From Pyropia yezoensis (lineage: Eukaryota > Rhodophyta > Bangiophyceae > Bangiales > Bangiaceae), in assembly GCA_009829735.1 (NCBI GenBank), contig CM020620.1, forward strand, positions 26,630,951 through 26,694,950: a stretch of DNA of 64,000 bases, read 5' to 3'. Below are positions 6,512-63,343 of the stretch, piece by piece. The notes beneath the pieces were generated by a model, which did not search any database, was not told where the DNA came from, and worked only from the letters and a program-made list of their open reading frames with translations. Position 1 is the stretch's first letter. Each line of letters opens with the position of its first letter. A program made the translations under genes and the position numbers.

Positions 6512-7744
6512 TCACCTCCCCCTCCCCCCAGCACGCCGGCGCGCCACAAGCGGCGCGAGAGGTGGGGGCGCCCCCACCCCCCCTCCGACACCCCACCCGC
6601 CCCGTGGCCGCCTGACTACCACCTCCACCCCCGGTGGCGCGGCGGCGCGGGCCACCACCACCGCCTGGGGCGGCGGCGTCTCTTCCCCCGCCGGCTTAAA
6701 AATGTCGCCCGATGACACGCTGTCCGCCGCGTCCTTGCCCGCCTTGATCGCCTTGGGGATGTAGATGATCCCAAGTGGCACCAGGACAACCGCGAGGATG
6801 GCAATGACCAGCACAATGATGCAGCACTTCTTTTTGCCCGCGCTCTTTTGGTGCGCCCGCGCCTGCACCAGCTCCACGTGCGCAGCCTCGGTCTGCTGCA
6901 CCGTCTCAGCCACGTTGTACTCGATGTTGTCGAGGAGCTCCCCCTGCGTCTGCACCAGCAGCTGCATGTCCACAAACATCTGGTGGAGGGCAACGATGCT
7001 CGCCTCGACCTTTTGGAGGTCCGCATTGCGGGCCGAAAGGTCCTCCAGCCCCGCCCGCAGGCGGTGCTGCTCGGCTGGCTCCAACGCCGCCAGCGTCGGT
7101 GACGCGTCCATCACCGCCGCCACGTTGCCCGTCCGCACCGCGTCGGCAATCGCCGCGTCCGACGCGGCCGGGTTGGCCGCCCGCAGCCGCCGCGCAAGCG
7201 CCGTCTCAACATCGTCCCGGTGCTTGTCCTGCGTCGCCTCGAGGCGCTGCATGATGGCCATGTACCGCTTGGTCAGCGCCTGATGCTGCGTCACCCGCAC
7301 ACGGATCTCGCCAACGGCGTGCGCGTAGCTCGCCGCAAATGCCTGGTTCTCATCCCCAATCCGCTTGAGGCGCGTCCGCACGGCGTTACTGCGCTTGTCC
7401 GTGCCTTCGAGGAGCGCCGCAATCTCCTCCTCCCGCCCGCGGGTTGTCGCAGCGTCCCCATTGCCGCCACCGCCTCGTTGTTCGTCAAGGGAGTCGCCGT
7501 ACCGGGTGTCGAGGGTGGTAATGGACTCCTCCATCTTCGTCAGAGCGGTGCCAATCGCCTCGGTTTCCGAAAAGAACTTGGCAAGCGCGGCCTTGCCGGC
7601 CGCGTCGAGCGCGGCACCCGACGAGGCGGCGGCGGGGTCCTCCAGGTCGGGGTCCCGCTCTACCTGCCCATAGTCCTCAGGGTCCTCAGAGGAAGAGGCG
7701 TCGGACGAGAGACCCGCCTTGAGTTCTGCTAGCCGGTCCGTCAT
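6512..7744 (-). CDS. Qa-SNARE, syntaxin-like
   Basis: This 410-aa tail-anchored SNARE would drive membrane fusion. After an acidic N terminus (residues 1-45), residues 50-190 form the Habc-type helical bundle. The Qa-SNARE helix sits around residues 260-325 and contains LHQMFVDMQLLVQTQGELLD, with Gln at the zero layer and the DNIEYNV wording typical of plasma-membrane syntaxins. It is followed by a Lys/Cys patch (GKKKCC) and one hydrophobic anchor, IIVLVIAILAVVLVPLGIIYI. Unlike most syntaxins, which end within a few residues of the anchor, this frame goes on for about 70 residues of Pro/Gly/Arg-rich sequence. That tail may be real or may mark a missed splice. The ATG at 7744 gives MTDRLAELK, a normal syntaxin start, and is preceded by a pyrimidine-rich leader. 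Confidence 0.9.
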   Translation of the reverse strand: MTDRLAELKAGLSSDASSSEDPEDYGQVERDPDLEDPAAASSGAALDAAGKAALAKFFSETEAIGTALTKMEESITTLDTRYGDSLDEQRGGGGNGDAATTRGREEEIAALLEGTDKRSNAVRTRLKRIGDENQAFAASYAHAVGEIRVRVTQHQALTKRYMAIMQRLEATQDKHRDDVETALARRLRAANPAASDAAIADAVRTGNVAAVMDASPTLAALEPAEQHRLRAGLEDLSARNADLQKVEASIVALHQMFVDMQLLVQTQGELLDNIEYNVAETVQQTEAAHVELVQARAHQKSAGKKKCCIIVLVIAILAVVLVPLGIIYIPKAIKAGKDAADSVSSGDIFKPAGEETPPPQAVVVARAAAPPGVEVVVRRPRGGWGVGGGVGAPPPLAPLVARRRAGGRGR

Positions 7745-14288: not shown

Positions 14289-17200
14289 ATGGGTCTCCTT
14301 GCCGCCTGCTTTGGCCGCAACGCTGGCCGGCATGACGATTGGGATGACGCGCCGCCGTCACTGTCGCAGGGCGCGGCGGTCCTGACGGCGCCGCCCACGC
14401 TGACATCTGCGGCGCGGCCACCGACGGGCTTGCCGCCTTCTGGCGGTGGCGGTGGCGGTGGCGGTGGCGGGGTTGGGGGTGGGGGCGGCGCCCACCTGCA
14501 CCTGTTTGCCAAGGCGCAGCCGCTGACGCGGGAGGCAACCAAGGATAAGCTGCGTAAGCTGCTCAAGGAGCGGCTGGACCGGCGGAGCCGTTCGGCGGTG
14601 CCGCTCGTAGATGACCTTGAGTTTGTGGTGCTGGCCAAAATCTACGCTGACGGCGACGCGGACGAGGACTTTGACGCGGACCTCCGCGGCCTGTCGTCCT
14701 CGTCGGTTGCGCACCTGCTGCCGCTGCTGCTCAACACGCTGCTGTATGGGCTGTCCTCGAGTCCACGGGGGGGGGGGGGCGGCGTGGGTGGTGGCGCCGG
14801 CGGCGCTGGCGGCGCTGGCGCTGGCGGCGTTGGCCTTGGCGCGTCGGCACCGGCGGCGTCGCGTTTTTTCGGCGGCTCCTCTTCAGCGCACGCGTTGAGC
14901 AATGGAATTGGTACGCTGGTGACAACGACAACGGGCATGAGCCGGACGAGCTCGACCGCGTCGGCGACTGCGCCGGTGCTGCCGACGCTCAACTCGGCGC
15001 AGATGCTGGTGCGGAGCGCGCTTGAGTCGAAGCTCGAGTCGTTTATCTTTGAGCGCTGCCTCCGCGACGTGCACCTTGCGCTGGCGTGCAGCTGGTTCCT
15101 GACGTCCAGCCTGTTTCTGGGACCCCCAGAGAAGTACCACCGCACCATGACACTCCTGCTGTCTATGGAGTCGGTAGTGATGATGAACCGGGACCCGGGC
15201 AACCTCTTTCGACAAACGTGCATCGCTCCGCCGGGGCGGGGCTCGAGCGGCACCATCGGGGGGGCGGGCGGGGGGGAACGGGGGGAGCCACCAGACGTGG
15301 GCGGCTCGCCGCTGACCGAGACGGACCCATCGGCGGACCCGTCAGCGCGCCCCCCCGCCGCCGGCCCCTCCGCCGGTCCCGCTGCCACCGCCGCTTCCGC
15401 CGCCGTCACCGCGCTGGCGACGACCGCGGCGAGTTCTGGCAGCGCACAACCCCCTGCCTCCATTCCCCCCCCTGTGGTCACTTCGGTAGCGGTGGCTGCC
15501 ACCGCCGCGGCGGCTGCGTCGGCTACCCCCGCCTCTGTTGGTCCCGCGCTACCCGCCTCCACTGCGAACAGCATCGTCCATGCGTCTTCGGCGGTGATGT
15601 CGCTGGATACGACGGGCGACGGCCAGGCCAACGTGGACGTGCAGTTTAACAACCTGCGGAACGGCGACGCGGCCAGCCTCCGCCAGTGGATGGTGTTGCG
15701 CAAGGAGCGGGCGAACATGTTCCACGCGGAGCTTGACATGATCAAGTGCCTCACGGACATTTCGTATGGCCTGTTTACGATTGGGCCGGACGAGCGGCGG
15801 GACGTGCTGCGGCGCGAGCTGGACAAGCTCAACGACCACATCCCCGCAGGGGTGTACATCCCCACAGACTCGGCGCCACACCGGGTGCTGCGCGTGGTGC
15901 CCGAGGAGGCGCACGTGTTTTCCACCAAGGAGCGCGCGCCCTACCTGCTCGTCGTCGAGGTACAGGACGCGGAGCCACCACCGCGCCCGCCGTCGCCTCC
16001 AGGCTCGCCAGTGCACCGCAAGGGCGGGCTCCACCATCGCCGCCGCTCGTCGGTGGCGGTGATGTCGGGCCGTTCCACAGCAACCGTGCCGTCGGGGAGT
16101 GGCACAAGTGCAGATGCGGGGGGGCTATCCCCGACTCAGTCTCCGTCGGCCGCTGACGGCAGCGGGCCTCCCGCGCTCTCTCTGGGTAGCAGCGCTGGGA
16201 AGAAGCCTGCGGCCGGTGTGGGTGGCGGCATCGACGCCGCCGGCGCTGAGCAGCAGGCCGCCTTTAACTTTATGCCACGCATGAATTCAACGGTGAGTGC
16301 GCCGCAGGGGCGTACGGATACGGGCGGCGTTGTGGAGCAGTCTCCCCCTCATTCTCCCCCGCCTCATGAGAATTCCGACTCTGCCTTCCTGGATGTCGAG
16401 GACGGGGACCCTGCCTCTGAGTCGGACCGCCGCCCCCCAGACGAGGAGCTGCTCAAGGCGATGGGTGAGCCGTGGGCGGAGAAGTGCGAGCGTATCCGCG
16501 CACAGTCCCCGTACGGTCACCTCCCTCGCTGGCGGCTGACGTCCGTCATTGTCAAGGCGCGGGATCAGCTGCGGCAGGAGATGTTTGCTCAGCGTCTGAT
16601 TGCCGAGTTCTCGCACATCTTTACCGCCGCGGGTCTTCCGCTGTGGTTGCGCCCGTACAACATCCTGGCCACGTCCCAAGACTCGGGACTGATTGAGACG
16701 GTCACGGACGCCAAGAGCATTGACGGCATCAAGAAGGCGGGTGTTGTGACGCTCGAGGACTTCTTTGTGCGCAAGTTTGGGGGCCGCGGATCGGCGCCGT
16801 TTAAGAAAGCCGTCCGCGCCTTTTGCGCGTCCATGGCGGGGTACTCTGTGGTGACCTACCTTCTGCAGATGAAGGACCGGCACAATGGGAACCTGCTGTT
16901 GGATGCGGAGGGCCACGTGGTTCACATTGACTTCGGGTTCCTGCTGTCCAACTCGCCTGGCGGTAATATTGAATTCGAGCGGTCGCCCTTCAAGCTGACT
17001 CGCGAGATGGTGGCGGTTATGGGCGGTACCAAGAGCGGCTACTTCAAGTACTTCCGCAAGCTTTGTCTGCAGGGCTACGTGGAGGCCTGCCGCAACGCCA
17101 ACAAGATCATGCTCATGGTAGATACCATGTACACGGGCAACGAAAGCATGCCCTGCTTTCTACACGGCCGTGAGTACGTGCTTGATGGCCTCCGGGAACG

Positions 17201-17330
17201 GTTTGCAGTCAACTTGTCACGGCGGGACCGGGCGCACAAGTTTGCGGGTCTGATCGAGGTGGCGAATGACCACGTGACAACCAGCTTGTACGACCGGTTT
17301 CAGCGCAGTACGCGGGGAATCCGAAGGTAG
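14289..17330 (+). CDS. PI4KB: Phosphatidylinositol 4-kinase type III beta (Pik1/PI4KB)
   Basis: This 1013-aa lipid kinase makes PI4P, mainly at Golgi/TGN membranes. The C-terminal 300 residues carry the catalytic domain: GEPWAEKCERIR near residue 726, LPLWLRPYNILATSQDSGLIE, the catalytic loop MKDRHNGNLLLD at about 861-872, the metal site VHIDFGF at about 878-884 and the closing TTSLYDRFQ. The wording (SNSPGGNIEFE, FKLTREMV, GYFKYFRKLCLQGY) is specific to the type III beta branch rather than alpha. Residues 70-300 hold the PIK-accessory (LKU) helical segments, broken by Gly- and Ala-rich inserts; residues 330-440 and 560-690 are disordered Ser/Pro/Ala linkers. The start at 14289 gives MGLLAACFGR, which could be N-myristoylated at Gly2 and palmitoylated at Cys7. 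This differs from animal PI4KB. The gene has no intron, and the stop is followed by a second TAG. Confidence 0.95.
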   Translation: MGLLAACFGRNAGRHDDWDDAPPSLSQGAAVLTAPPTLTSAARPPTGLPPSGGGGGGGGGGVGGGGGAHLHLFAKAQPLTREATKDKLRKLLKERLDRRSRSAVPLVDDLEFVVLAKIYADGDADEDFDADLRGLSSSSVAHLLPLLLNTLLYGLSSSPRGGGGGVGGGAGGAGGAGAGGVGLGASAPAASRFFGGSSSAHALSNGIGTLVTTTTGMSRTSSTASATAPVLPTLNSAQMLVRSALESKLESFIFERCLRDVHLALACSWFLTSSLFLGPPEKYHRTMTLLLSMESVVMMNRDPGNLFRQTCIAPPGRGSSGTIGGAGGGERGEPPDVGGSPLTETDPSADPSARPPAAGPSAGPAATAASAAVTALATTAASSGSAQPPASIPPPVVTSVAVAATAAAAASATPASVGPALPASTANSIVHASSAVMSLDTTGDGQANVDVQFNNLRNGDAASLRQWMVLRKERANMFHAELDMIKCLTDISYGLFTIGPDERRDVLRRELDKLNDHIPAGVYIPTDSAPHRVLRVVPEEAHVFSTKERAPYLLVVEVQDAEPPPRPPSPPGSPVHRKGGLHHRRRSSVAVMSGRSTATVPSGSGTSADAGGLSPTQSPSAADGSGPPALSLGSSAGKKPAAGVGGGIDAAGAEQQAAFNFMPRMNSTVSAPQGRTDTGGVVEQSPPHSPPPHENSDSAFLDVEDGDPASESDRRPPDEELLKAMGEPWAEKCERIRAQSPYGHLPRWRLTSVIVKARDQLRQEMFAQRLIAEFSHIFTAAGLPLWLRPYNILATSQDSGLIETVTDAKSIDGIKKAGVVTLEDFFVRKFGGRGSAPFKKAVRAFCASMAGYSVVTYLLQMKDRHNGNLLLDAEGHVVHIDFGFLLSNSPGGNIEFERSPFKLTREMVAVMGGTKSGYFKYFRKLCLQGYVEACRNANKIMLMVDTMYTGNESMPCFLHGREYVLDGLRERFAVNLSRRDRAHKFAGLIEVANDHVTTSLYDRFQRSTRGIRR

Positions 17331-19641
17331 TAGTAGGGTATGTGGTGTGTTGTTCTCTTTTTCTCGTCGAGGGGCGAGGGGTGGACAACCGACTACATTA
17401 TTTCTCTCCATGAAGCACACTTCAGTCAGGCTTCCTACATTTAGATGCGCAGGGATCTGTATCCGTAGGAAACCGTGGACATGCAGCGAGAATGCGGAGG
17501 CATATCGCCCCATCCGTTTCTTGCGTGGAAGTAGCCCCCTCCCCCATATTTTTTCATACACGACTCACGTTGGCCTCGCCCGTAAATTACTCGTGTACTG
17601 GTTGCGAACGTCTGGCTCACTCGTCTCCTGCCACGTGTTGGAGCCTCGTGATGAACCCCGCGCTGGTCGGAGAGACGTTGAGCGGGCGAGCGGTGCAAAT
17701 CCCCGGCTCTTGATGTCGACCACCTCGCGTCCACCGGATGGGCGTTGCGTCGAGCGCCGACGACATCCCGATTCTCTCGGCTCGCCGTCCCTCCCTTTGT
17801 TCTGTCTAATGCGGCGGCCAACCAAGAGCGCCCACTTTGCCCCGCCTCCTCACCCGCCGAAGGTGGCCTTCCCCGCCAGACCCATCCCACGTCGACGCTG
17901 GCAAGCACAGACCCCCCCGCTCTCCCGCCCCTCGCGAAGAGAAACTAGTCCTGGCTTGCCGCGTGTGCACCGCGGGCGACGGCACCTTCCTGCCAGCCGG
18001 TCCCTGGTCGCGCGGGATTTCACCGCAAGCGCTCAGCCGGCCACAGCAGACGGTGACACCCGTGTACTTCTTCGCGCCCCACCTCACCTTGAGGCCACGA
18101 CCCGACATTGGGCCTTGGTGTTGGCCCTCTTTCCTACTGCTGCCGCCACGCGTGTCCCCCCGCGGTGTCTGTTCCCTCTCTATGGTCCACAGCACGATAT
18201 GGAGGGTTGGCGGCCCCGTGGTCACAGATGTGTGCACGTGTCGGTCGCCTGCGGGCCCCGATGGGGGGGCCATGAGCTAGCGCACCTGCGGCACGGGGGT
18301 GTCAGTCCCGCCACGACCTTCCCGCGCTCCCTTTGACCCCCCCCGCCTCCGCGCAAGCTGCCAGCGGCCCAGGTCGTCGACTAGTTTTTTTGGTCACGCC
18401 TACACTGCCGCCGCCGCGCTGGCTTGGCACCCGCGCCGCGGGGAGGTAGCGTGGCCCAGAGAGTCAGAGCGCGCGCGCCATATCGGGTCGGCCTCGCGGG
18501 GACGCGTGCGACCCGTGGGGGCTCCTCCGCTCCCCCCCCCCTCCCCTTTCCTCAGCCTCCCCCCCCTCTGGGCAGGTCAGCGTGGTCAAGCCTTGACGGG
18601 TTCCCCCGCGCGGTGTGCCCCCCCGCGCGTAGGTGTCGCGGCAGGCACGGGCCAGCCCAGCTGTTCGGCGGGCCGAGCCAGCGGGCTGCGCGCGGCACTG
18701 GCCAGCAGGTGTGGACCTGTTGCTGTTGGGTCCGCGGTCTTGGCTTCTTGCACAGCCACGTCGGGCGCGGGAGTCAAGGGTGGCTTGAGAGAGTGAGCGG
18801 GAAAGGGGGTGGGAGGGGGGGGGTGAAGTGCGGCGGGCGGCGGGGGACGGCCTCTTTGGCGACTCGTCCGCGCCCGCCGGTGGGCCCTGACCGCGCCGTT
18901 CTTGTCGTGGGGCGGCAGGTTCTTGGCCGCGTGTCGGAGCGGCCGCACCCCCCAGCCAAGGGAGCCAATCAGTCGCCTGCACTGAGGGAGCGGGCGCTCA
19001 AGTCGGCCAAGTGTGGCCGTTGGGTCCAGGTCACCAGCCTGCCTGCCTACAGCCCACACCTCCCCGTCGGTCGGGCGAGTAGAACCGGGGCCAGGGGGGT
19101 CCCTCCGCGGGTCGCTTTCCCGGGGCACCGATATGGTCGGGGCCCAAAGGGGGTCATCCCACCCCGCGACATGGTGTGTCTGCCGGTTCGAAACACCATC
19201 CACGCTCAGCATGCAGGCGCACGCCAGTCAGGCCCCCTTCATCCCCCCACCGCGATGGTTGTCAACTTGACCACCCGCCTCTGGCGGTTGTGTCCACCGC
19301 AGGTGCAAGCGGCGTTCGAGGTGGTGTGTGCACGTGTGACGGTGTGAGCCGGCCGACACTTCCGGATGGTGCGGGGGGTGGGAGGCGCGACAGCACCCTA
19401 CGGGGGACGCTGCGCGCGGCGCACTTGCGCGTCCAGCGCCCCTACATTGCGCCAGAGAGGTCATAAAGCGGCCGCTCCGGGGCCCAGCCAGCGGCGAACC
19501 GTTTGCACCTTCCACACAACTGGCTTGCATTCTCGTCGAGTGAGCACCTTGCCCCCGTCCACTTCCCCTCCTTCTCTACAAAAGAGGCGCCATCCTCTTC
19601 CCCTCTCCCTCCACCCCACTCCATCCGCCCACCTCACCCCA
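17331..19641. other. Spacer between PI4K and TALE genes
   Basis: This is 2.3 kb of sequence between two plus-strand genes. 17330-17650 is AT-richer and probably contains the PI4K 3' UTR and terminator. The rest is GC-rich with many overlapping Arg/Pro frames and no recognisable domain. The final 100 bases before 19642 form a C/T-rich leader. The TALE frame is open upstream to about 19366, but that extension lacks domain content and looks like leader. Confidence 0.45.
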
Positions 19642-21858
19642 ATGCAGCCCGCCGTGAGCATGCAATCACGCCGGTGGTCCGCCATGGAGCGTCCGCTCGG
19701 TCACTGGGTCCCTGGCTCCGCCTCTGCCACCGTGTCAGCAGTGCCACCTCTATGGGGTGCTGGCTCCATGCCGACGGTAGCTGCGGGTGAGGCTGCACCC
19801 GTGACTTCGCCCTCAACCTTGTCGCCCATGACGATGACGCCCACTCTTACGCCGTCGGGGTCGGCCAGCACCATTGGCTCAACGACGACTGGGGGGCTCA
19901 CTCTGCCACGCCTTCCGCCGCTCCACTGGGGGCGCCGACATCCCGCAGCGCCGCTACCGGCTGCCTCAGAGGGCAGACTATCCCAGCCACCGCAGGTGGC
20001 CTCGACGTCGTCGGGAGCTCCCGCGCTAGCGCTTCCCCGACCCATCCTGACGCTTCCACCTCTCGGCCGCGTTGGAGGAGGAGTGGGACTTGGGGGGGGC
20101 ATGCAGCCATTGTCCCCACTGAGTTCGCTTCCTACCACACCTGTGGGCGTGATCGGGGGGGCGTCGCGGGCTCCTCAGCTCCCCCCCCTGCGACCCGTAC
20201 TGCCTTCAATGACGCGTACGGTTGAGGGCATGTCGACGACCAAGGACGGGACCTCTCGGAGTGGGGATGACCGCCTTGTGGCAGGCAAGCGACCCAGGAC
20301 GTTGGGTCCTCCACTCGAGCAACCCAGGCGTCAGAAGGCTACTGAATCGACAAGACGACCGAGTGAACCCGCTCGACCACCCCAGCCGAGTGGTCACCGT
20401 CAAGGCAGCAATCCCAAGCCTACAACGGAGCGGCCAACCAAGAAGTCTCGCGTGGCGTACCAAGTTCCCGCGCCGCCACCGCCGCGATTCGAACGGGCTC
20501 CCACCAGGAAAGCCTCTGAAGCTGTACTGGCGAGCCCGTGTGTGGCGCCAGCCATCCAGCATTCGGAGATGTCGTCCTGTGCTGACCCACCGTCTCCGCC
20601 ACCTCCGCCCAAGGCAGGCGCGCCGCTTACGCCGCTCGACCCGTTCCCTCAAGAGCTCGCTAGAGCTGCTCGCGACGCCGAGCTTGCCGTCCACAAGTGC
20701 GCACTTGCCGGATCGTGGGGCCAGTTTAGCGGCCTGCCTCTTTCACGAGGGATGCGCGACGACGCCAGACAGCAATCTACTGCTGCAGCGGTCACTGCCA
20801 AAGCAATGACGCCTCCCGTCCCCCGTGATGTCGGGGATGCCGGCTTCCCCCCCAACGAGGAGGTCGACCTTATGCATCTCGCCGACAGTCTCAGCACTGT
20901 TCTTCCCGCTGAGCGGGCCACCATCCTCTCTGCGGCAGCTCAACAGCTTGGCGCCATCCGCGCCGCATATGCTGCATACTGCGGTGCGGCTGCGCTGGAG
21001 GAGCTATCCCAGCGAGCATACCGCTTCGTTCCTCCTGCCGAGGTGGCTGGGCGGCGCCGATGGATCACGGAGCGTTTTGCCGCTGCCCGCCGGCGGGTGC
21101 TGGGCAAGTACGCCGCGTACGCGCGGGTGGGGCGTTTCTTTCTTGGCAACGCTGCCGCTGCTCCATCCTCACCCGGTCTGTCGGGTGCCGGGTCAAGCAG
21201 CACCGGAGGTGGGGCGATGGGGGCCACAGGCCGCAAGGCGCGACCCAAGGGAGGCGTCCGCCGCGGCGGCCTCGATGCGCGAGTAGCGGGGCGGCTCAAG
21301 TGCTGGTTGCTTGACCACATTGAACACCCTTACGCCAGCCGCGCAGAGAAGCAAGCACTGTCCGCCCTCACGGGCTTGACTGTTCTGCAGATATCCAACT
21401 ACCTCATCAATGCGCGCGTACGAGTGGTGTCACCTCTGACGGCTGACTTGATGGGCTCGACGGGTGGGCCTGACGAGGAGGGGGACGACAGTGATGGTAA
21501 CAAGGGGACCAGCGACACAACCGACGGGGAAGAGGCGCCCGACCGGGCGGCGCGCGGTGATCCAGAGCGAGTGGACGGCAGCCGCAGCGGCAGCACCGCA
21601 GACGACGCTTGTGGCGGTGCCGGCCCGTCAGTTGGGACAGGTGCTGCTCGACGCAGCCGTCGAAGTGCACCTGCTTCTGCTACCTCGCCAACGTCAGGCC
21701 CCGACGCGCGGTTTGTTGACGAGCACAGTCGACTGTTGCTGCGGCTATTTACTAGCTCATTGGCGTCGGCGAGACCCTGCTTGCCGCCAAAGAGCAGCGG
21801 TGCAGCGGTCACGCTACCAAGTGGCATCTGGACGCCAGGCGTACCACGCCACTGCTGA
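19642..21858 (+). CDS. TALE-class homeodomain transcription factor, atypical helix 3
   Basis: This 738-aa protein has a three-residue-extended (TALE) homeodomain at about residues 540-600. The HPY triad of the TALE loop is present in LLDHIEHPYASRAEKQALS, followed by TGLTVLQISNYLINARVRV. TALE proteins normally have SNWFINARRR here. Asn51 and Arg53, which contact DNA, are kept, but the near-invariant Trp48-Phe49 is Tyr-Leu. A Lys/Arg patch (TGRKARPKGGVRRGG) just before the domain could be a nuclear localisation signal. Residues 1-330 are Pro/Ser/Thr-rich, and residues 400-520 are Ala-rich and helical but do not match KNOX or BEL domains that I can recognise. The C-terminal tail is acidic. In algae, TALE proteins control the haploid-diploid transition as heterodimers; that role is inferred. 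ATG 19642 was chosen after the C-rich leader. Confidence 0.85.
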   Translation: MQPAVSMQSRRWSAMERPLGHWVPGSASATVSAVPPLWGAGSMPTVAAGEAAPVTSPSTLSPMTMTPTLTPSGSASTIGSTTTGGLTLPRLPPLHWGRRHPAAPLPAASEGRLSQPPQVASTSSGAPALALPRPILTLPPLGRVGGGVGLGGGMQPLSPLSSLPTTPVGVIGGASRAPQLPPLRPVLPSMTRTVEGMSTTKDGTSRSGDDRLVAGKRPRTLGPPLEQPRRQKATESTRRPSEPARPPQPSGHRQGSNPKPTTERPTKKSRVAYQVPAPPPPRFERAPTRKASEAVLASPCVAPAIQHSEMSSCADPPSPPPPPKAGAPLTPLDPFPQELARAARDAELAVHKCALAGSWGQFSGLPLSRGMRDDARQQSTAAAVTAKAMTPPVPRDVGDAGFPPNEEVDLMHLADSLSTVLPAERATILSAAAQQLGAIRAAYAAYCGAAALEELSQRAYRFVPPAEVAGRRRWITERFAAARRRVLGKYAAYARVGRFFLGNAAAAPSSPGLSGAGSSSTGGGAMGATGRKARPKGGVRRGGLDARVAGRLKCWLLDHIEHPYASRAEKQALSALTGLTVLQISNYLINARVRVVSPLTADLMGSTGGPDEEGDDSDGNKGTSDTTDGEEAPDRAARGDPERVDGSRSGSTADDACGGAGPSVGTGAARRSRRSAPASATSPTSGPDARFVDEHSRLLLRLFTSSLASARPCLPPKSSGAAVTLPSGIWTPGVPRHC

Positions 21859-41018: not shown

Positions 41019-42032
41019 GGTGGCCACCGATGGCAGCGTGCGGGACAAAGGTGGGGGACGGGGGGGGAGAGGGGAAAGGAAACGGCGGCCCCGCGCGCTG
41101 CAAGGCGTGCGCGTGTGGCTGTGGGGGAGGAGGCTGGGTACTGCCTGTGTACTTGGACCGTGACACTTGGACAACAGACTCACACCCGGACGGCTGCCGC
41201 GTCGCCCGTCGGCTGTGACGGAGGCGGGATCAAACGGGCCTCCGGGTGATGTCACTGGGGCCAAGCGACACCACTGGCCCGCCTCGCGTTGCCGACCCCA
41301 AAGGTGCATGCAGTCTTGTCCCAATCTCCCGCCCCCCCCCCCCGACCACCACGGCCGTCCCTCTGCCGGCCACAAGAAAGTGGGGAGCGCGCGGGTGGGG
41401 GCAGAGGCGGGCAGGTTCAAAATAGCTCTTGGCGCCCACTACCCTTGCCCCGTTCCGTGCATGCCAGCCCCTTGCACGCAATGTGGGGGGGCCGCACTGT
41501 GGACCCCCCTCCACCCCCTACTGCGCTTGCCGCCTGGCTGCACCGAGGCCCCGGGGGGGGGGGCGGGTGGGGGGGGGGGCGGGGCGGGGGCGCGCTCTGC
41601 TTCAAGCATCCCCCCACCGGCCGGTAGATCTTGGCGCCCGCGAGTTGGCGCGCGTGGACAAACGGCCGCGGTCGCGCCAACGAACTCGATCCTCGCAGAC
41701 CGCGGTGCCAACGGATATCCCATCGCCCCCGCACGGGCCACGGGCGGGGCGATAACATCGCGTCGTGTCCCTACCTACGGCTCGTCGGCCCCCACTCCTC
41801 GCCCTCCCTGGCCCCTCTCTCAACCTCCTCCTGTACCGCCCCACCGCCCTTTGCTGTTCCCTTGCCTCCACCCCTTGCTGTTCCCTTGCCTCCACCCCTC
41901 GCCCCCCTCCCACCCTCCCCGGCTCCTGTCTCTCCTCCTTTACCGCCCCACCGCCCTTCGCTGTTCCCTTGCCTCCACCCCTCACCCTGCTCCCTCCCGC
42001 CCTCCTTCCCCCCACCCACCCCCCTCCAAACT
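41019..42032. promoter_or_regulatory. Divergent promoter spacer (SMIM4 / DEG-ENaC-like)
   Basis: One kilobase separates divergent starts. 41820-42030 is a nearly pure pyrimidine leader built from repeated blocks. Pro/Arg frames on both strands are composition artefacts. Confidence 0.45.
41834..41990. repeat. Duplicated pyrimidine-rich leader blocks
   Basis: A block containing TACCGCCCCACCGCCCTT and then TGCTGTTCCCTTGCCTCC occurs twice about 100 bases apart, and its second half is additionally doubled at about 41865-41905. All copies lie in the C/T-rich leader just before the ATG at 42033. Confidence 0.75.
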
Positions 42033-42471
42033 ATGGCCGTTCGCTTCCGTGACGCCCCCCTGCTACACGCCGTCGAGACCGCCCTCATCGCGGCCGAGGC
42101 CCGCCTCGACGTGGCCGCCGCCGTCGCAAACGCCATTGTCGACGCGATTGCAGAGGTGGCGGCGCTCTCCGACGCGGCTTTTGCGGCCGACCGGGCCGCC
42201 GACTACGCTATCGGTGACGCCACCGACGTCGACGATGCCGACGACGCCGACGACGCCATCCTCGTTGACGACAACGTCAACGCCGCCGACGCCTCCGACG
42301 TTGACGACGACGATGCTGCTGCCGTTGTGGTTGCCGACGCGGCCGACGGCGTGGGCAGCCCAGACGACCCGACTCTTGCCACCGCTGCCACCCGGGCCGC
42401 CCGACCTTGTCATGCGACAGCGGGCAACAGCGATGTTGCGGCAGGCGAGGTGGCGGCCACCGGGGGGAGCA

Positions 42472-42508
<37 letters not shown>

Positions 42509-43019
42509 GCCATCCTCTGGAGCTTACCCCCCCCCCCCCCTTCGCCCCGCGTTCCGCTACGCCGCAGACACCCCCCCGCCCCCCCGTCACTTCCATGGGG
42601 ACAGGGAGGCCACCGTGGAGCTCATCATGTCTGCTTTCCAAGCACTTTCAACCGTTGCCATGGCCGAGAACGCGCTCCGTGACACGCTGGCGCTGTCGGT
42701 CGGTGCTGTTGACTCGGCGCCACCGCTGACCGCCATTGCCAACATCCGTCGTGGCATCGCCGCGGCGTCCGCGGACCTCGGGGCCAAACGCCGCCGCGCG
42801 CGGCTCGGGGCGGCAGCAGCGGCAGCGAGCTGTCATGCGTGTGGCGGCGCTGCCGCCGCCCGCCCTGTCCCGTCCTTTTCGTCGACCGTGTCGCCGGGCG
42901 CCAGCCCTGCCGCCACTGCCGCCGTGAGGCCGCCGCCGGTGCTGCCACTGATGCCCGGGGGGCGATTTGAGGTGGCCGACGGGCGGGGGGGGGGGGGGGG
43001 GGGGGGCCTCGTTGCCGGG

Positions 43020-43051
<32 letters not shown>

Positions 43052-45432
43052 GCGATGCTGCTGCCGACGGGGGCCTGGGCTGTTGTGGCGGGCTGGGGCT
43101 CCTGGCAGGGGGGGTCTCCCTGCCACTCTCGCGGCGCGTAAGTGTGGTGACCGCCACTAGCAGCGGGGATGGGCGCCTTCGGGGGAATGGGGGGTCGGCG
43201 CACAATGGCGCTCCGCCTGCCGGCGGCGGCGTCGCTGGCGGTGAAGGCAACGGTGGCAGAGGCGGCGACGGCGTGCCGGCTCCTCCCCCTGCCGGCCGTG
43301 CGGCGCAGCGGGTGGGGGAGTGGGTTGCTGGCCTTTCCCTCCCCCCCCGTGACCGACGACGGTCGTGGCGGCAGCGGTCCCGGCGGCGGCGGCCGCCTCC
43401 CCCCCCACCCCCGCCCCCAACGCCGGCCGCGGCGGCCGCGGCGCGCACCCGCACTGCTACCACTGCCGTCGTAGTGGCGTCGGCGGCCACGTGGGCGGCC
43501 GCCCTGACGGGCATGACAGCCGCGTTGGTGCTGCTCTGCCGCGCCTACGCCGACGGCGTCGCGCACCCTGTGCTGGTGCGGGACGTGTTTATTGCGCCCG
43601 CCCTGCCGCTGCCGGTACTGACGCTGTGCTCCTCTGTGCTTGGCATACCCGCGTTTTCGAGGTACCCCACCGCCACCCACCCGGGTGACCCGCTGTTTAC
43701 GGTGCGGGCAGTGATTGGGCCGGGCGCGGGGCCCGACGAGACCGCCGTCTACCCCGAAAGCCTGGACGCCGTTGAGGAGCTGTCGCTGGGGCCAGCTGGC
43801 GCGCGCTGCGAGGAGGGCGGCAGCGGGGTGGACCTGATGGACTCCGCCGCGATGAACCGCTTCACCGGCGTGCCCAGCGGGGTGACGTCAGTCCGCCGTC
43901 GAGGCGGTCGCAACGAGACGACGGCGCCCCCGCGGGGGGACGGGCCTGTCCCCGGTGAGGTGCCTGGCCTGGAGCTGGGCGCCCTTCGCCCGCCCTCCGC
44001 CTCGGCGGGCCTCTGTGCCGCGTGCTTCCGGCTGGGCCGCTCCCCGCAGCTGGTGCTCAACGGTACCGCCGCCGCGGCGGGCGCCGACATGACCGTGCGA
44101 GTGGAAGTCGTGGCCTCCCAGGCGGTGGAGTCGTGCATCTTCCCCACCCAGGATATGCCCCTCACCAGAATAATGGTCTTCATGGAACTGATTTACGCGC
44201 ATTCTGAGGGGCTCGTCGCGGCCGGTGTGCTCAACTATAACGGCGCACCACGGTTTCCGCGGGATTCGGAAAGGGTGTACCACTGGTTGACACCGCCGAA
44301 GAACCCCATCCTAGATGAGCTGAAGCTTCTCGCTGGCTACGAAGGCTACCTCAGCTTCCTCTGCAACACCGTACTCTTTTCTGGCTACTTTTACCCGGCA
44401 GTACCGGGCATCGACATCCGCTACCGCCTCGACTGGCGGGGCGACCAGTATCCGTGTGAGTTTGACCTGGAAGAGGAGGCCTTGCTCCTGTCACCCGGTG
44501 CTATTAACGAGTCGGAACTGCCATTTCTACGGTGCAGATACCCCGTCTGGAGGGCCCTCGGCAGCGGGCCCCACTTCCAGCCCGAGTCGTCGCTGCGGGC
44601 GGGGCCGACGAAGGCGCTGTCGACCCGCTCCGACGCGGCAGTACTGGACCTGCTCGTCGGGCGGCAGCCCTCGCAGCTCGGCACCGCCCCCGACCCGTAC
44701 ATTGACGTAGACGGGTTTCAGCTGTGGCGCCAGGCGACCTTGTCCACTGTGTACGGGCACTTTGTGAGTGTCTACGCGCAGGACCAGGGGGATGTGGCGG
44801 CGGGGGGGGCGCAGGGGAGGCTCCGTCTCCCCAACCGGGAGGACCTGGTGCGGCGGGTGGAGGTGGGGCCGGCCATCGTGCGGCTGTCGTTGAAGCGGGT
44901 GGCGGGCTATGGCAACGGCACGCAGCTGGGGAGGGGCCCTCTCCGTGGGGGGGGGAGCGGGCGCCGCCGTCGCCCGCCCGTCGTCACGCCTGGTACCGAC
45001 GCTGCCGCCGACGACGAAGACGTGCAAGCGACTACCACGACGGAGACGGAAGCGGCAGAGGCGGCGGCTGCCGCGGCTGCGGCAGACGACGATGTCCCTC
45101 TCCTTCGTGGCGGTGCATACGTGGCGGAGCGGATGGACCGGTTGCTGTTGGAGCAGCCCAACGATATGGGCCGCGCCACCAACACGAGCTACGTAGGGTG
45201 GCTCCTCGAGTTTACCCTGGAATCGTACGTGGTCGAGTCGTACACGCGGCGGGTGGCGTGGGGCGCCAGCCTCTTCGTCGCCGACCTGTTCAACGTGATC
45301 GGCGTGTTCACGGGTATCAGCGCCTACACGCTCGTCGTGCTGCCAGGCACGCTGATACTTGCGCGGAGCGTGCGCGCGCGGCAGCGGGCGGCGAGGGCGG
45401 CGCGGGGGGTGGAGGGGGCGCCGCGCGGCTGA
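42033..45432 (+). CDS. Two-pass membrane protein with DEG/ENaC/ASIC-like topology
   Basis: The gene reads in one frame from ATG 42033 to the G runs at 42985-43006 and 43023-43052, then in another to the TGA at 45430; neither half has a start or end of its own, so I join them (about 1,100 aa). The N-terminal third is acidic, Ala-rich and probably cytosolic. TM1 is at about 43465-43545 (AVVVASAATWAAALTGMTAA). Right after it comes APALPLPVLTLCSSVLGIPAF, which resembles the FPAVTLCN motif after TM1 of acid-sensing/epithelial sodium channels. A 570-residue extracellular part with scattered Cys and N-glycosylation sites (NGT, NES, NTS) follows. TM2 is at about 45280-45360, with FNVIGVFTGISAYTLVV; GIS (45313-45321) fits the GxS selectivity filter. 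The C-terminal tail is short and Arg-rich. The channel identity is a hypothesis from motifs and topology. Confidence 0.55.
42985..43052. repeat. Paired 22- and 30-base G runs inside the gene
   Basis: G runs at 42985-43006 and 43023-43052 lie where the reading frame of the two-pass membrane protein changes. Confidence 0.85.
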
Positions 45433-45889: not shown

Positions 45890-47608
45890 ATGGACGCCGA
45901 CGCCGCCGACGATGACCCCATTGTCGAGACGCACCCCGTGTACCTCTCGCTCCCCCCCCCTGGCTCGCGGTCGGTGCTGCTGCAGCATGTCCTCCGGGCA
46001 GCGGCGGTCCCGGTTGGCAGCGACCGCCCTGTCGTGGCACTGCGCTTCCGCCCCACCTCCACCACCTATGAGATGGACCTCCGCCGGCTCCCGTCACCCG
46101 TCACGTTGTCGACACGGGGGGCGGGCGGTGGGGACACCTCCCGCCGCTCGTTCGACCCAGACCGGCTGGCGTCGTTGGGGGGGGGGGTCCAGACGCTCTC
46201 CTCCTCCCTACCCCCAACGACGCGCGCCAACCACATGGCGGCGGTGTTCCTGCCGCCCCCGGCGTCGGCGGCGGCGGGGGAGGGGGGTGGTGGTGCGGGG
46301 GTGGTGGGAGGTTCTGCTGGTGCTGCTGCCGCGGGAGGGGGGACAAGAGGAGGAGCAGGCGCCGCCGCCGGTGGTGGGCGCCTCATCCTCACCCCCCTCC
46401 ACACCGTTGCACAGATGCGCCCATCGTTTGCCTATGTGGACGAGCGCATTGAGGGGGAGCGCTCCCGCGTCCTCTCTGCCCGCACCGAGTCGCGCCGTGG
46501 CGCCGGCGGCGGCATTGGCGACGTCAAGGCCGAGCCGGGCACCCCCGCTGCCGCCGCCGCGGCGGCGGCAGCGGCAGCCGCCGCGGATGGCGGGGAGGAC
46601 GCGGACCTCGTTGCGGTGGGGGTGAGCTTTAAAAAGCGTGAGACCGCCCGTGCCGCCGAGCGCCGCGCCGCCAGCCACACCACCCTCATGGCGGTGGTTG
46701 ACGCGGAAGCGTGGCGGGACGCCGCCTACTTTCCCGCCACCGCCCCGGCCGCCGTCGCGCGGCGGCGGGCGCTGTTTGCTCCTCCCCCTGGGGGGGGGGG
46801 GGGCTGCGGCACCGCCGCTGCCGCCGCCGTGGATGTCGACTCGGTGCCGTCGGTGGCGCTCGAGGAGCCCGCCGTGTGGGCGGGCCGCTTCCGCCTCACC
46901 GACGCGTCGGTGGGCCTCTCCCCCGCCGCCGCCGCGGCGGCCACCCCCGGAAGCACCGCCACTGCCGCCGCCGCCGCCGCCACCGCCGCCGCCGCGTCTG
47001 CCTCTGCCGCGGCGGCGGCGGTCTCCCCCGGGGCCCCCCCCTTGGCCCGCCGGGAGCTGCTGCGTCTGCCCCTCGGCGCGGCCATCCGCCACGTGGTTGC
47101 TCGCGCGCGGCTGGTGGAGCACGGCGCCCTCTCCCGCACGGTCCTAGGTGCGTCCCCGTCGGCGACGGCCGCCGCCGCGCTGGCTGACGCCGCCGGCGAT
47201 GCCGCCCTCCACCTCCGCGGCTGCTGGGTTGCCCGCGCCCGCACGGCGGGCCCGGGTGGCGCGCCCCTGTCATCTACCGCCGCCGCCGCGCGGGCGGTGG
47301 TGCTCGGCGCCTTTCTCTCCACCCGCACCGTCGCGGCGGCGGACGTGGCGGCTGCGGTGACCGCGGCTGCCGACGGGCTGGCGGTGGTGGACAGCGCCGC
47401 GATTGAGGGGTGGCTGGGAGAGGTGGCCGTGCAGGTGCGCCGGGTGGGCTGGGAGTTCAAGGTGCCCGACGGGACGGCATTTGCAGAGGGGCACCCGCGG
47501 CTCGCCGCGGCGCACCGGGCGGCGTGGGAGAAGCGCGTCGCATCGGCGAGGGGGGTTCTCCAGAAGAAGGCAGCGGCGGCGCGGGCGGCCGCGGGGGGCG
47601 CCCTCTGA
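45890..47608 (+). CDS. POLR3E: RNA polymerase III subunit RPC5 (POLR3E / yeast Rpc37)
   Basis: This 572-aa protein is the RPC5 partner of RPC4 in the TFIIF-like subcomplex of Pol III, which works in initiation, termination and reinitiation on tRNA and 5S genes. The N terminus DDDPIVETHPVYLSL matches the family opening 'DDPvv.eipVyL', and ALRFRPTSTTYEMDL is the beta strand of the RPC4-dimerising barrel. Around residues 245-285, VSFKKRETARAAERRAASH...AEAW.DAAYF matches the conserved 'V.FkR.Es.ra..rr..Sy..l....EeW..L.Y' block. C-terminal winged-helix-like parts follow (LLRLPLGAAIRHVVARARLV, AAIEGWLGEVAVQVRRVGWEF). The inserts are Ala- and Gly-rich, as usual here. The ATG at 45890 sits in a good context after a pyrimidine leader. 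No intron is seen. Confidence 0.85.
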   Translation: MDADAADDDPIVETHPVYLSLPPPGSRSVLLQHVLRAAAVPVGSDRPVVALRFRPTSTTYEMDLRRLPSPVTLSTRGAGGGDTSRRSFDPDRLASLGGGVQTLSSSLPPTTRANHMAAVFLPPPASAAAGEGGGGAGVVGGSAGAAAAGGGTRGGAGAAAGGGRLILTPLHTVAQMRPSFAYVDERIEGERSRVLSARTESRRGAGGGIGDVKAEPGTPAAAAAAAAAAAAADGGEDADLVAVGVSFKKRETARAAERRAASHTTLMAVVDAEAWRDAAYFPATAPAAVARRRALFAPPPGGGGGCGTAAAAAVDVDSVPSVALEEPAVWAGRFRLTDASVGLSPAAAAAATPGSTATAAAAAATAAAASASAAAAAVSPGAPPLARRELLRLPLGAAIRHVVARARLVEHGALSRTVLGASPSATAAAALADAAGDAALHLRGCWVARARTAGPGGAPLSSTAAAARAVVLGAFLSTRTVAAADVAAAVTAAADGLAVVDSAAIEGWLGEVAVQVRRVGWEFKVPDGTAFAEGHPRLAAAHRAAWEKRVASARGVLQKKAAAARAAAGGAL

Positions 47609-58325: not shown

Positions 58326-60305
58326 ATGGCTAGTTCGGACCCCCCGTCGTCCGGGGAGTACACGGGTGACGCACGTACTTCAGTGCCTTTGAATACTGGT
58401 GAGACACAGGTGGGTTTACCTGGGGTTGCGGAGGGACTGGAGGTCCCTCAAGCCAGCAGGACTGGAAGTGCGGGCGGGCAACAGGCCACCCCGACTCAGT
58501 CGGGAGTTCACTCGGGTGACACTTCTGATGTGGGTGGGCCGAAGTCTGGCCACCGTGTGGTATACTCAACGGGAACGTCCCAAGGGGTGAGGACTGTCCC
58601 CGCGGGTTCCACTCGGGTTGGAGCCAACTTTGGCTTGGAGCCGTCGCCAGCTAGGCTTTCGGAGGACGGCGGACCTCCGTTGGTCGGCGATGGGCTCGCG
58701 CCCATGCCCCCGGTTGAGACCCCTGAGGAACGTGGTTACCCCTCAGGTGGACTCCCGGAGGCGGACCGAGACTCAACTGGAGTCGATAATCCACTCCTCC
58801 CGGAAACTGTCCGTCGGGAGGCGACCAATGTGTTGCGGCAGACTTTGCCGGACCTGGTGGTCACGATGACGAATACTATTCTGAATCAGATTGTGGCGAG
58901 TTTGCCAGATGGCCTTAATGTCCAGACCGGATTGGGGCTTTCGAGCCCGCAGGCGCAGGGGGAATCCCTCCTTACGCCTATCTCGGGTCGCCCCATACAG
59001 GGGGCGACACCTTTGACTCCCAACGAGGGAGCCACACCATACTCGGTGGGGCATGTGGCAGTATCGCGACTGCCACGTATAACGGACCCAGCGATCGGTG
59101 CTGTAAGGATTTGGGCTGAAAAGCCCATATCTGGCCCAAGATGTCAAGGATTCAACCCGTGGCGCAGTGGTCCACAACGCCTGGTTAACATATGTTCCAT
59201 GGCGTGGGTTCGATTCCGGGCATCCAACATCGATTTTTCCGGCGATTTCAAGGTGACTTCTGCTACAGGGCATGCGCCCTTCATGGGGGAGTTCTCCCCG
59301 GCAACGCCGGCGGCTACACCAAGCGCGCCGCGCCGGACTACAGGCACTGAGGGTGAACTTACCCCAGTGCCACAGCGGCTATTCCCTCAACGTGAGGTGC
59401 CGCCCAAGATCCAGGTAGCCAACCCGGTCTACCAGAGGATCTTTGATTGTGAGACCTACGCCCTCCACAACAAGTCGGTGGCGTATGGTCCTGACCAGGC
59501 CCGAGCCATGGGCCGTGCCAAGAAGAATGCACTTCACTCTTTTGGGCACAAAGCGGAGTGGGATGGAACTCCCCCACTCCGTGTCTTTGAGTTCCTACGT
59601 CGTTTCACAAAAGCCTGTGACGACAATGCCATAAGTGATGGCATGGCTTTTTACATGCTACAGGAGTTTACGAAGGGCGACCTGCAGACAGAACTTATGT
59701 CCGTCATGCCCAGCTCCTCAAGTGGAGGCGCTGGGGAGGTGACGTCCTATTTGGAGCTCGTGAACTGGTTGTTGAGGGCCATGGTTGATGAAGCGGCGTT
59801 GGCTTCTCAAGTCGAGGAGTTTACGCAAGCCCATCAGGAAGAGGCGGAGGACGAGTTGTCCTTTGCGGAGCGAGTCCGTAAGCTCAACAATCTTTGTGGG
59901 TTTCTTCATCCACAAGCTGTGGTGAAGAGTCGGTTTGTGGAGGGACTCCATTGGTCAGTCCGGATGGAGACCCGGGAGCATAACACTGTTCGGGCGACCC
60001 TGGCCGAGTTGGCTAGGTTCGCCTACCGCAGAGGCGAGGCCTACCGCAAGTTGCGAGAGGAACAACGCCAGGAGCGTCAAGCCGAGTTGGCCAAGGAACG
60101 GGAGGAGGCGCGCCAGGCCAGAGAGTTGAGAGAGGCACGCCGAATCCGCAAGGAGAGGGTGGTAGCTGCCGTGGGAACTTCCCAGGGTATCTCTTCGTCT
60201 TCCCCAGTTGGGAAGACCCCTCCGGGAACTGACAATCGGTGTTGGAACTGCAACTCCGATGGACACTGGGCATATGATTGCCCTATGTTGAGTAAACGCA
60301 TTTAA
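58326..60305 (+). CDS. Gag polyprotein (capsid and CCHC nucleocapsid)
   Basis: The 659-aa Gag starts at ATG 58326 (MASSDPPSSGEYTG). Residues 1-250 are Ser/Gly/Pro/Thr-rich; an odd segment at about 59100-59240 carries tRNA-like promoter boxes (listed separately). The retrotransposon gag/capsid core lies at about residues 370-560 (FEFLRRFTKACDDNAISDGM, AFYMLQEFTKGDLQ, ERVRKLNNLCGFLHP, RFVEGLHWSVRMETREHNTV). A Lys/Arg/Glu-rich coiled stretch (REEQRQERQAELAKEREEAR) follows, then one zinc knuckle CWNCNSDGHWAYDC, a perfect CX2CX4HX4C. The TAA at 60303-60305 is followed in frame by 61 further Lys/Ser/Asp-rich codons to a TGA at 60489. Confidence 0.9.
   Translation: MASSDPPSSGEYTGDARTSVPLNTGETQVGLPGVAEGLEVPQASRTGSAGGQQATPTQSGVHSGDTSDVGGPKSGHRVVYSTGTSQGVRTVPAGSTRVGANFGLEPSPARLSEDGGPPLVGDGLAPMPPVETPEERGYPSGGLPEADRDSTGVDNPLLPETVRREATNVLRQTLPDLVVTMTNTILNQIVASLPDGLNVQTGLGLSSPQAQGESLLTPISGRPIQGATPLTPNEGATPYSVGHVAVSRLPRITDPAIGAVRIWAEKPISGPRCQGFNPWRSGPQRLVNICSMAWVRFRASNIDFSGDFKVTSATGHAPFMGEFSPATPAATPSAPRRTTGTEGELTPVPQRLFPQREVPPKIQVANPVYQRIFDCETYALHNKSVAYGPDQARAMGRAKKNALHSFGHKAEWDGTPPLRVFEFLRRFTKACDDNAISDGMAFYMLQEFTKGDLQTELMSVMPSSSSGGAGEVTSYLELVNWLLRAMVDEAALASQVEEFTQAHQEEAEDELSFAERVRKLNNLCGFLHPQAVVKSRFVEGLHWSVRMETREHNTVRATLAELARFAYRRGEAYRKLREEQRQERQAELAKEREEARQARELREARRIRKERVVAAVGTSQGISSSSPVGKTPPGTDNRCWNCNSDGHWAYDCPMLSKRI
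59160..59217 (+). other. tRNA-like A-box/B-box pair inside gag
   Basis: TGGCGCAGTGG at 59160-59170 fits the Pol III A box (TRGCNNAGYNGG), and GGTTCGATTCC at 59207-59217 fits the B box; their starts are 47 bases apart, as in a tRNA gene. Three of four D-stem pairs can form (GCG with CGC), but the T stem and anticodon stem cannot, so this is not a working tRNA. The D-arm is preceded at 59112-59127 by a GGGCT-GAAA-AGCCC tetraloop hairpin. It may be a tRNA-derived SINE head caught in frame in gag. Confidence 0.5.
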
Positions 60306-62167: not shown

Positions 62168-63343
62168 TGCCACCTCTTCACTCAAGAGGTGGAATACTTG
62201 GGACATGTTGTCCGTCCGGGGCGTCTCAGTGTCAACGAGAAAAACTTGAGGGCCATCCGTAAGGCTCAGTACCCCCGGACCCAGACCCAGATGAGGAGCT
62301 TCCTCGGGATGTGTAACGTGTACCGACGTTTCACCCAGGGCTTCGCCAAGGTGGCTAAACCGTTGAATGAGTTAGTGAGCTCAACGCTACCGAAGAACCT
62401 GCCTCCCCCAAGTAGGGTGGAGCAGGAATCCTTTGAGACTCTTCGGGACCTTCTGCTGAAGCCCCCTATCCTGGCTATTCCCAGGTTGGGAGGCCACTAC
62501 ATCCTGGATGTGGACGCTAGCTACGACCAACTTTGTTGTGTGTTGCTTCAGCAGCAACCGGACAAGGAGTACTTGCCGGTGGGATACTTCAGCAAGGGGC
62601 TGAACTCGGCCGAGAAGAACTACGGAGTCACCGAGTTGGAAGGACTCGCAGTGGTATGGGCGGTGACGTCACTTCTTCACTACCTAGAGGGTGAGAAGTT
62701 CCTCATCCGCTGTGACCACCGCTCGTTGCAGTTCATCTTCAAGACGGACTGTACGAACACTCGTCTCAACCGGTGGAGGGTGCGACTGGCGCCCTTCAAC
62801 TTTCATATTGAGCACCGACCTGGCAGGCAACATGCCCTTGCCGACGGCCTCTCTCGGGTACCTACCGAGGGGCTGGACACTAACCCAGTCGATGAGGACA
62901 TCCCCATCGGGGGGGTAGTCACGCGCTCGGGTCAGGCGTTGAACCCCGAGGCGCCAGGGAACAAGAAGTACTTGCCCCTGTCCCTGGACGAGGTGGTGAA
63001 GGCCCAGGCCGAGGATCCCTTCTGCAAGTCGCAGAGGGATACACTGGATACAGTGGCAGAGACGCGGTTCTTTCTGGGAGACGATGGCCTCCTCATGAGG
63101 AGGGGGGTATTCCAGGGGACCGAACAACTTGTCGTCCCCGCATCCCTCAAGGACAGTATCCTTGAGAGGGAGCTCAACGCTCCCACGGGTGGACACCTGG
63201 GGTCTAGTAAACTGTACCAGACCCTGAGGACCAGGTACTACTGGCCGTCCATGGTGGTGGACATCTACAGTTGGGTGGGTGCCTGCACAAGTTGTGCACA
63301 GAACCGTTTGATGGAACGGCGGCCTACTACGGCTATGCTATAG
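62168..63343 (+). pseudogene. Pol RT thumb, RNase H and integrase zinc domain
   Basis: EVEYLGHVVRPGRLSV and TQMRSFLGMCNVYRRF complete the RT thumb and connection. RNase H shows its catalytic acids in YILDVDASYDQLCCVLLQQQ, YGVTELEGLAVVWA and RCDHRSLQFIF. The tether FNFHIEHRPGRQHALADGLSR is typical of Ty3/gypsy. The integrase zinc domain follows: GGHLGSSKLYQTLRTRYYWP...CTSCAQNR has the second His and both Cys, but the first His is replaced (ELNAPTGGHLG). TAG at 63341-63343 ends this stretch. Confidence 0.85.

Follow-up and report, generated by a model that had tools for sequence, protein, structure and literature searches.

The subject of this report is a gene of the red alga Pyropia yezoensis that lies in the window, a stretch of 64,000 nucleotides of contig CM020620.1. 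It encodes a protein with a first transmembrane (TM) segment, a large loop and a second TM segment (TM1 and TM2), which an earlier note had read from the letters alone as a possible DEG/ENaC/ASIC-type channel. Our results support this reading, both through the fold matches and through the DEG/ENaC chains that come first in profile searches of PDB sequences. Judging from homology, modeling and analogy with animal channels, we consider it very probable that the gene's product is a subunit that forms the pore of a trimeric cation channel, and that it represents a separate red algal branch of the DEG/ENaC superfamily. The in silico basis consists of sequence homology, motif register, predicted fold, signs of topology and family spread. 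By analogy, the protein would form trimers in the plasma membrane and select cations, and its stimulus and physiology may be envisaged on the same grounds.

The features of the gene are listed below. Residues are numbered on the translated segment 43456-45429, and conservation is counted over a 24-row alignment (A4) of the window protein and 23 of its 31 database relatives. ORF stands for open reading frame.

42033..42980, forward strand: probable cytosolic N-terminal region, Ala/Asp/Gly-rich, in the frame of the ATG at 42033, whose ORF continues to 43160; co-linear with the N-terminus of the paralogue L013 (MA-RF-D start), its joining to the TM frame being inferred
42981..43052, forward strand: poly-G tract (72 copies of a period-1 unit by tandem repeat finder), where the N-terminal and TM ORFs of the ORF list overlap in different frames
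43459..43563, forward strand: predicted TM1 helix, residues 2-36 (AlphaFold models; Arg-rich stretch upstream)
43564..45264, forward strand: predicted extracellular loop, residues 37-603, with ectodomain strands and low-confidence Gly/Ala-rich inserts in the model (sequon and cysteine counts)
43603..43629, forward strand: post-TM1 motif LPLPVLTLC, counterpart of ASIC1 FPAVTLC (alignment of 24 rows; Pfam ASC match of relative P0003)
44362..44397, forward strand: conserved ectodomain block CNTVLFSGYFYP, residues 303-314 (Cys303 in 24/24 rows; F308, S309, G310, F312 and P314 each in at least 90%)
45265..45408, forward strand: predicted TM2, made of two helices (604-619, 623-651) separated by a break (AlphaFold models)
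45283..45285, forward strand: Asp610, which the filter Ser follows 12 residues later, as with Asp434 of human ASIC1 (Asp in 22/24 rows)
45313..45321, forward strand: G620-I621-S622 at the TM2 break, counterpart of the GAS belt or selectivity filter (hhalign register, VIA alignments, family alignment)

The TM part is encoded by the forward-strand ORF 42952-45432, which is open over 826 codons. The ATG at 42033 lies in a different frame, and its ORF (41628-43160) overlaps the TM ORF across the poly-G tract. The earlier note had treated 42033..45432 as one joined protein. A single gene over this span is likely, though not proven, because the N-terminal frame and the beginning of L013, a paralogue with no interruption, are alike: the comparison scored 83 (shuffles 51.6 +/- 6.5, best of 500 = 84), and that of a second N-terminal block also 83 (shuffles 48.8 +/- 7.2, maximum 78). 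This resemblance supports one gene; the union of the two overlapping frames is itself only inferred. The change of frame at the poly-G tract could be due to an intron or to an error of length in the assembly, and either may hold. A Pfam search of the N-terminal region (42033..42980) gave no match.

Topology and motif register

Both AlphaFold models place long helices at the TM1 and TM2 sites, in agreement with the two membrane passes that had been proposed. Further predicted helices, e.g., 288-308, sit inside the loop, and hydropathy has another peak at the post-TM1 strand (residues 39-50). Arg-rich flanks lie before TM1 and after TM2. The predicted topology thus comprises two TM helices, two cytosolic termini and a large extracellular loop, here of 567 residues. 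The description of this loop as Cys-containing and rich in glycosylation sites also holds. All five N-x-S/T sequons of the TM segment fall within it (1.25 expected over 2000 shuffles, P 0.002), together with eight cysteines, at 58, 118, 187, 190, 227, 303, 334 and 360, and those from 58 to 303 are invariant in 24/24 aligned rows, the window row included.

The post-TM1 segment had been likened to the FPAVTLCN motif of known channels. Pro53 and Cys58 are invariant in all rows, and in P0003 the Pfam ASC profile overlaps the site, its positions 22-74 aligning to residues 10-59 and spanning the motif. The CNxxxFSG of the ectodomain block and the CYTFNSG of ASIC1 are alike by eye only, with a spacing that differs by one residue. 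In TM2, the earlier note had recognized GVFTGIS as a pore filter at the end of the segment. The motif is present in TM2; its position is in the middle, and the model helix breaks there, at residues 620-622. The TM2 of ASIC is likewise interrupted at its G-x-S. The G-x-S of the window protein (GIS) is in register with the conserved Asp and with the TM2 break. An hhalign comparison with ASIC1 runs over 49 columns ungapped, with D610 on D434 and GIS on GAS, while VIA alignments ending at model residue 621 place it on ASIC1a residue 445, so that sequence comparison and fold comparison give the same register. Gly616, Gly620 and Pro630 are invariant (24/24), which, with the Asp in 22/24 rows, fits a pore under constraint.

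Homology, fold and rival explanations

The link to the ASC family (PF00858) goes through intermediates. The earlier note had proposed a profile search with the window protein, and this found nothing. We nevertheless conclude from sequence comparison that the two are homologous, because the window protein matches the Gracilaria protein P0012, P0012 exceeds the PF00858 cut-off, ASC is found in 14/24 rows of the family alignment, and all PDB matches of the TM2 segment belong to one superfamily. The match with P0012 extends from the post-TM1 motif to beyond the CNxxxFSGxFYP block (22% of 287, E 3e-17) and recurs in TM2 (E 6e-6), and P0012 scores 31.1 bits against PF00858 (cut-off 23.6, E 1.7e-7). 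The 14 rows with ASC were counted at E<=1; seven other families appear in one row each (best 0.004), at places and cut-offs that the scan output does not give. One of the relatives, P0017, has SYCE1 outscoring ASC, in the N-terminal region; such N-terminal Pfam matches in the relatives are weak and single (RH1 in P0016 is another). When nine other sequences were scanned singly, ASC was the only family reported, in four of them and below the cut-off; two of the four match the TM1 end of the profile, the others its TM2 end. Among 14 control genomes, PF00858 was above its cut-off in one, the bacterium Thermotoga maritima.

Profiles of the family bring the PDB sequences of DEG/ENaC channels to the top. 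With 8 rows, four rows were returned at E<=10, two being ASIC5 (0.88, 1.1) and two unrelated. With 24 rows, BRTNaC1 and ASIC5 led the list (E 0.0072-0.023), and the next three chains (E 0.12-3.4) were unrelated. With a 79-residue TM2-segment profile of 22 rows (A6, which is A4 minus the close relatives P0002 and P0025), 14/14 sequences at E<=10 were DEG/ENaC (ASIC5, ASIC2, ASIC1, BRTNaC1 and Pickpocket 26; best 2.4e-4). Chance resemblance, i.e., a two-pass membrane glycoprotein of other origin with a coincidental GxS and P-x-x-T-x-C, can appeal to the lack of a significant Pfam or PDB match for the window protein alone and is very improbable given P0012, this uniform set of PDB matches and the agreement of sequence and fold on the register.

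The predicted ectodomain adopts the DEG/ENaC fold. Structure prediction and comparison, which the earlier note had suggested against ASIC1, yielded ASIC, ENaC, FaNaC, BRTNaC1 and PDPNaC1, and also PAC. The note had named as contrary outcomes a lack of fold similarity to ASIC/ENaC or P2X and a different family profile over the ectodomain; ASIC and ENaC are among the fold matches, and no Pfam family besides ASC recurs. P2X was absent from the 50 rows listed in each of four fold comparisons, which excludes nothing. With ASIC1, ASIC2 and ASIC5 (PF00858; PDB 9e4a, 6l6p, 9mkz) the window protein has in common two TM segments, a large ectodomain, the overall fold, [FL]P-x-x-T-x-C after TM1, and the 12-residue distance from the Asp to the Ser of the TM2 G-x-S, at 11-15% identity in VIA alignments. 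The red algal proteins differ from ASICs in a much longer ectodomain with Gly/Ala-rich inserts, in a long N-terminal region, and in the absence of the conserved late loop cysteines and of the HG motif. BRTNaC1, of the centipede Scolopendra, heads the PDB matches when the whole family serves as the profile (E 0.0072). Its filter reads GIC, and many red algal members likewise have G-x-C there. PDPNaC1, from the same centipede, resembles the family in having no canonical HG motif, as described in passages of PMC12714832. Both are animal channels with shorter chains (421-431 residues), and the likeness is no sign of special kinship.

A number of observations weigh against a DEG/ENaC channel. The window protein has no ASC match in the Pfam searches and by itself does not reach the curated cut-off, the sole Pfam match of the longer ORF is a sub-threshold PRIMA1 (E 0.068), and the PF00858 model finds no match in the species' own genome. 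The search of PDB sequences with the window protein gave no significant match, its one row being a snRNA-activating complex subunit (E 0.73). P0012 is the only family row shown above the PF00858 cut-off. Direct scores against named channels are weak except in TM2, and hhalign reports a probability of 7.6% with the whole profile (P 0.0046), rising to 30% with the segment (P 0.00054). On the structural side, model confidence is moderate (predicted local distance difference test 68, predicted template modeling score 0.65), TM-scores (template modeling scores) are low, both fold searches lack a match at E<=0.001, and VIA gives PAC/ASOR scores (Z 14.0 and 13.9) nearly equal to that of ASIC (14.4). 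Upstream of TM1 the gene model is provisional. At residue 622, the 24 rows have Cys 15 times, Ser 8 times and Leu once. In the TM frame, the 168 residues that precede 43456 contain no HG motif (the N-terminal frame has a single HG far upstream, at residue 188 of that frame), nor do the 70 residues before TM1 in L013-L018; the motif occurs in 2/19 testable A4 rows, the window segment being too short to count among the 19. Between Cys303 and TM2 there is no cysteine in 22/24 rows and two in 2/24, whereas ASIC1 has 11 at 275-367, which we take to be the place of the thumb-domain disulfide ladder. This ladder was not found, and the gene is therefore not filed under the animal ASIC, ENaC or degenerin subfamilies. 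We do not count the HG motif as defining, because PDPNaC1, a conducting member, is described without a canonical one (passages of PMC12714832).

Some of these points could be turned into other explanations. The protein could be a chloride channel of the DEG/ENaC fold like PAC/TMEM206/ASOR (proton-activated, with two TM segments, trimeric), or a third branch of the fold. The VIA scores would agree with this, as would the PAC alignments, some of which span 245 residues at a root mean square deviation of 4.5. We think it improbable, since the PDB profile matches at E<=10 include no PAC chain, ASC is the sole recurring Pfam family and the TM2 signature is common to ASIC1. Just as small is the likelihood of a non-conducting DEG/ENaC homologue that acts at the cell surface as a receptor or as an adhesion protein linked to the wall. 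The variable residue 622, the long low-complexity inserts and the missing HG motif would suit such a role; the constraint on Gly616, Gly620, Pro630 and the Asp, and the conduction of PDPNaC1, argue against it.

A family of red algal genes

The gene belongs to a family. Searches of the own genome (107.5 Mb, 11 contigs) revealed at least six further loci, L013-L018, hence at least seven with the window gene. In alignments, L013-L017 are 25-50% identical to the window protein; L018 is split into exons, of which a downstream one reads GYIGLFTGAS. The protein database holds 31 relatives, including named proteins of Pyropia vietnamensis, Porphyra umbilicalis and Gracilaria domingensis. They were found with a block query built from pieces of the paralogues, whereas two earlier database searches gave three, probably because low-complexity words filled up the list of candidates. 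P0007 (Pyropia yezoensis I4F81_005904) matches L017, its best stretch being 100% over 122 residues, and all 535 residues of P0027 match exon 1 of L018. P0002 (P. vietnamensis) is closest to the window protein, P0011 (P. vietnamensis) to L018 and P0015 (P. umbilicalis) to L017, so these copies diverged before the species did. The relatives P0012-P0028, where measured, have 165 to 263 residues before the post-TM1 motif and hence a sizeable N-terminal region. Left out of A4 were P0001 (a near-copy of the window protein), P0007, P0009, P0029 and P0031 (short), P0015 (post-TM1 region unrecognizable), P0030 (no TM2 in alignment A3) and P0027 (unseen).

A further candidate, L019, was dropped for its weak match (E 0.126) and highly repetitive ORFs. 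L020 (G000:C1:30213000-30219000), near L013, holds pieces of a further copy, one alignment having an internal stop; it is probably a pseudogene and is not counted as a gene.

The next gene downstream (45890-47608, forward strand) matches the RPC5 family (PF04801, E 1.9e-27), which we take to be a subunit of RNA polymerase III. An origin of the window gene from contaminating animal DNA was rejected, as suggested by the 29.4 Mb length of the contig, the paralogues on two more contigs (34 and 44 Mb), the RPC5-like neighbor and the relatives in other red algal genomes. The other Pfam matches in the window are a phosphoglucomutase (1044-2327, reverse), a syntaxin/SNARE (6515-7744, reverse), a PI3/PI4-kinase (14289-17327, forward) and a KN homeobox (19366-21855, forward). 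Two forward-strand ORFs, 58326-60305 (zinc knuckle) and 62291-63343 (RT-RNaseH and integrase zinc-binding), are together probably part of a retroelement.

Proposed mechanism and meaning

The earlier note's remark that a photosynthetic member would be new was too strong: passages of a 2023 study (PMC10507113) include a Symbiodinium candidate and cite a dinoflagellate channelome paper. The BLASTp search of that study covered Rhodophyta; the candidates it reports come from holozoans, from a single alveolate (Symbiodinium) and from a single stramenopile (Cafeteria), and the passages name no red algal member. The Cafeteria, Tunicaraptor and Symbiodinium members, also DEG/ENaC outside animals and compared here by description only, came from searches with animal queries (same passages). 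Our own literature search, with subscription journals largely outside its scope, found no red algal member by title among the entries listed, and a red algal (Archaeplastida) DEG/ENaC family is new within that literature. P0012 bears a precomputed PF00858 label; automatic annotation therefore already flags one red algal protein.

How could such a channel work? TM1 would serve as the anchor of the subunit, whose two termini would lie in the cytosol, and the large glycosylated outer loop would be the sensor and gating domain. TM2 would line the pore, and its Gly-Ile-Ser belt, interrupting the helix, would narrow the pore and select small cations. An external stimulus would move the ectodomain and open the pore, and Na+ entry would then depolarize the cell. 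The most likely stimulus is a shift in pH, in salinity or in mechanical strain, such as occurs in the intertidal zone. The gradient would be kept up by an animal-type Na+/K+-ATPase as in related Pyropia/Neoporphyra species; the abstracts of PMC9846634 and PMC12066774 report such a pump in intertidal Neopyropia/Neoporphyra and Pyropia haitanensis. More broadly, we tentatively suggest, as a possibility somewhat short of even, that red algae have an ancient, separate, multigene DEG/ENaC branch, gated externally by intertidal stimuli and driven by the gradient of this pump, i.e., a sodium-based sensory and electrical system.

DEG/ENaC channels are regarded as largely metazoan, with exceptions in a few protists. 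Whether gene loss or lateral transfer explains their origin is a matter of debate (passages of PMC10507113). The loci of nori, at least seven, and the relatives in Porphyra and Gracilaria place them in Archaeplastida, so that this channel type would reach well beyond animals. The family also suggests a reason why single-query and Pfam searches overlook such members. Its members form a set on which ideas about the ancestral gating stimulus can be tested, and they provide a candidate route of Na+ entry in algae with a reported animal-type Na+/K+-ATPase. If the red algal branch is truly ancient, DEG/ENaC channels would be older than animals, or would have arrived early in red algae and diversified there.
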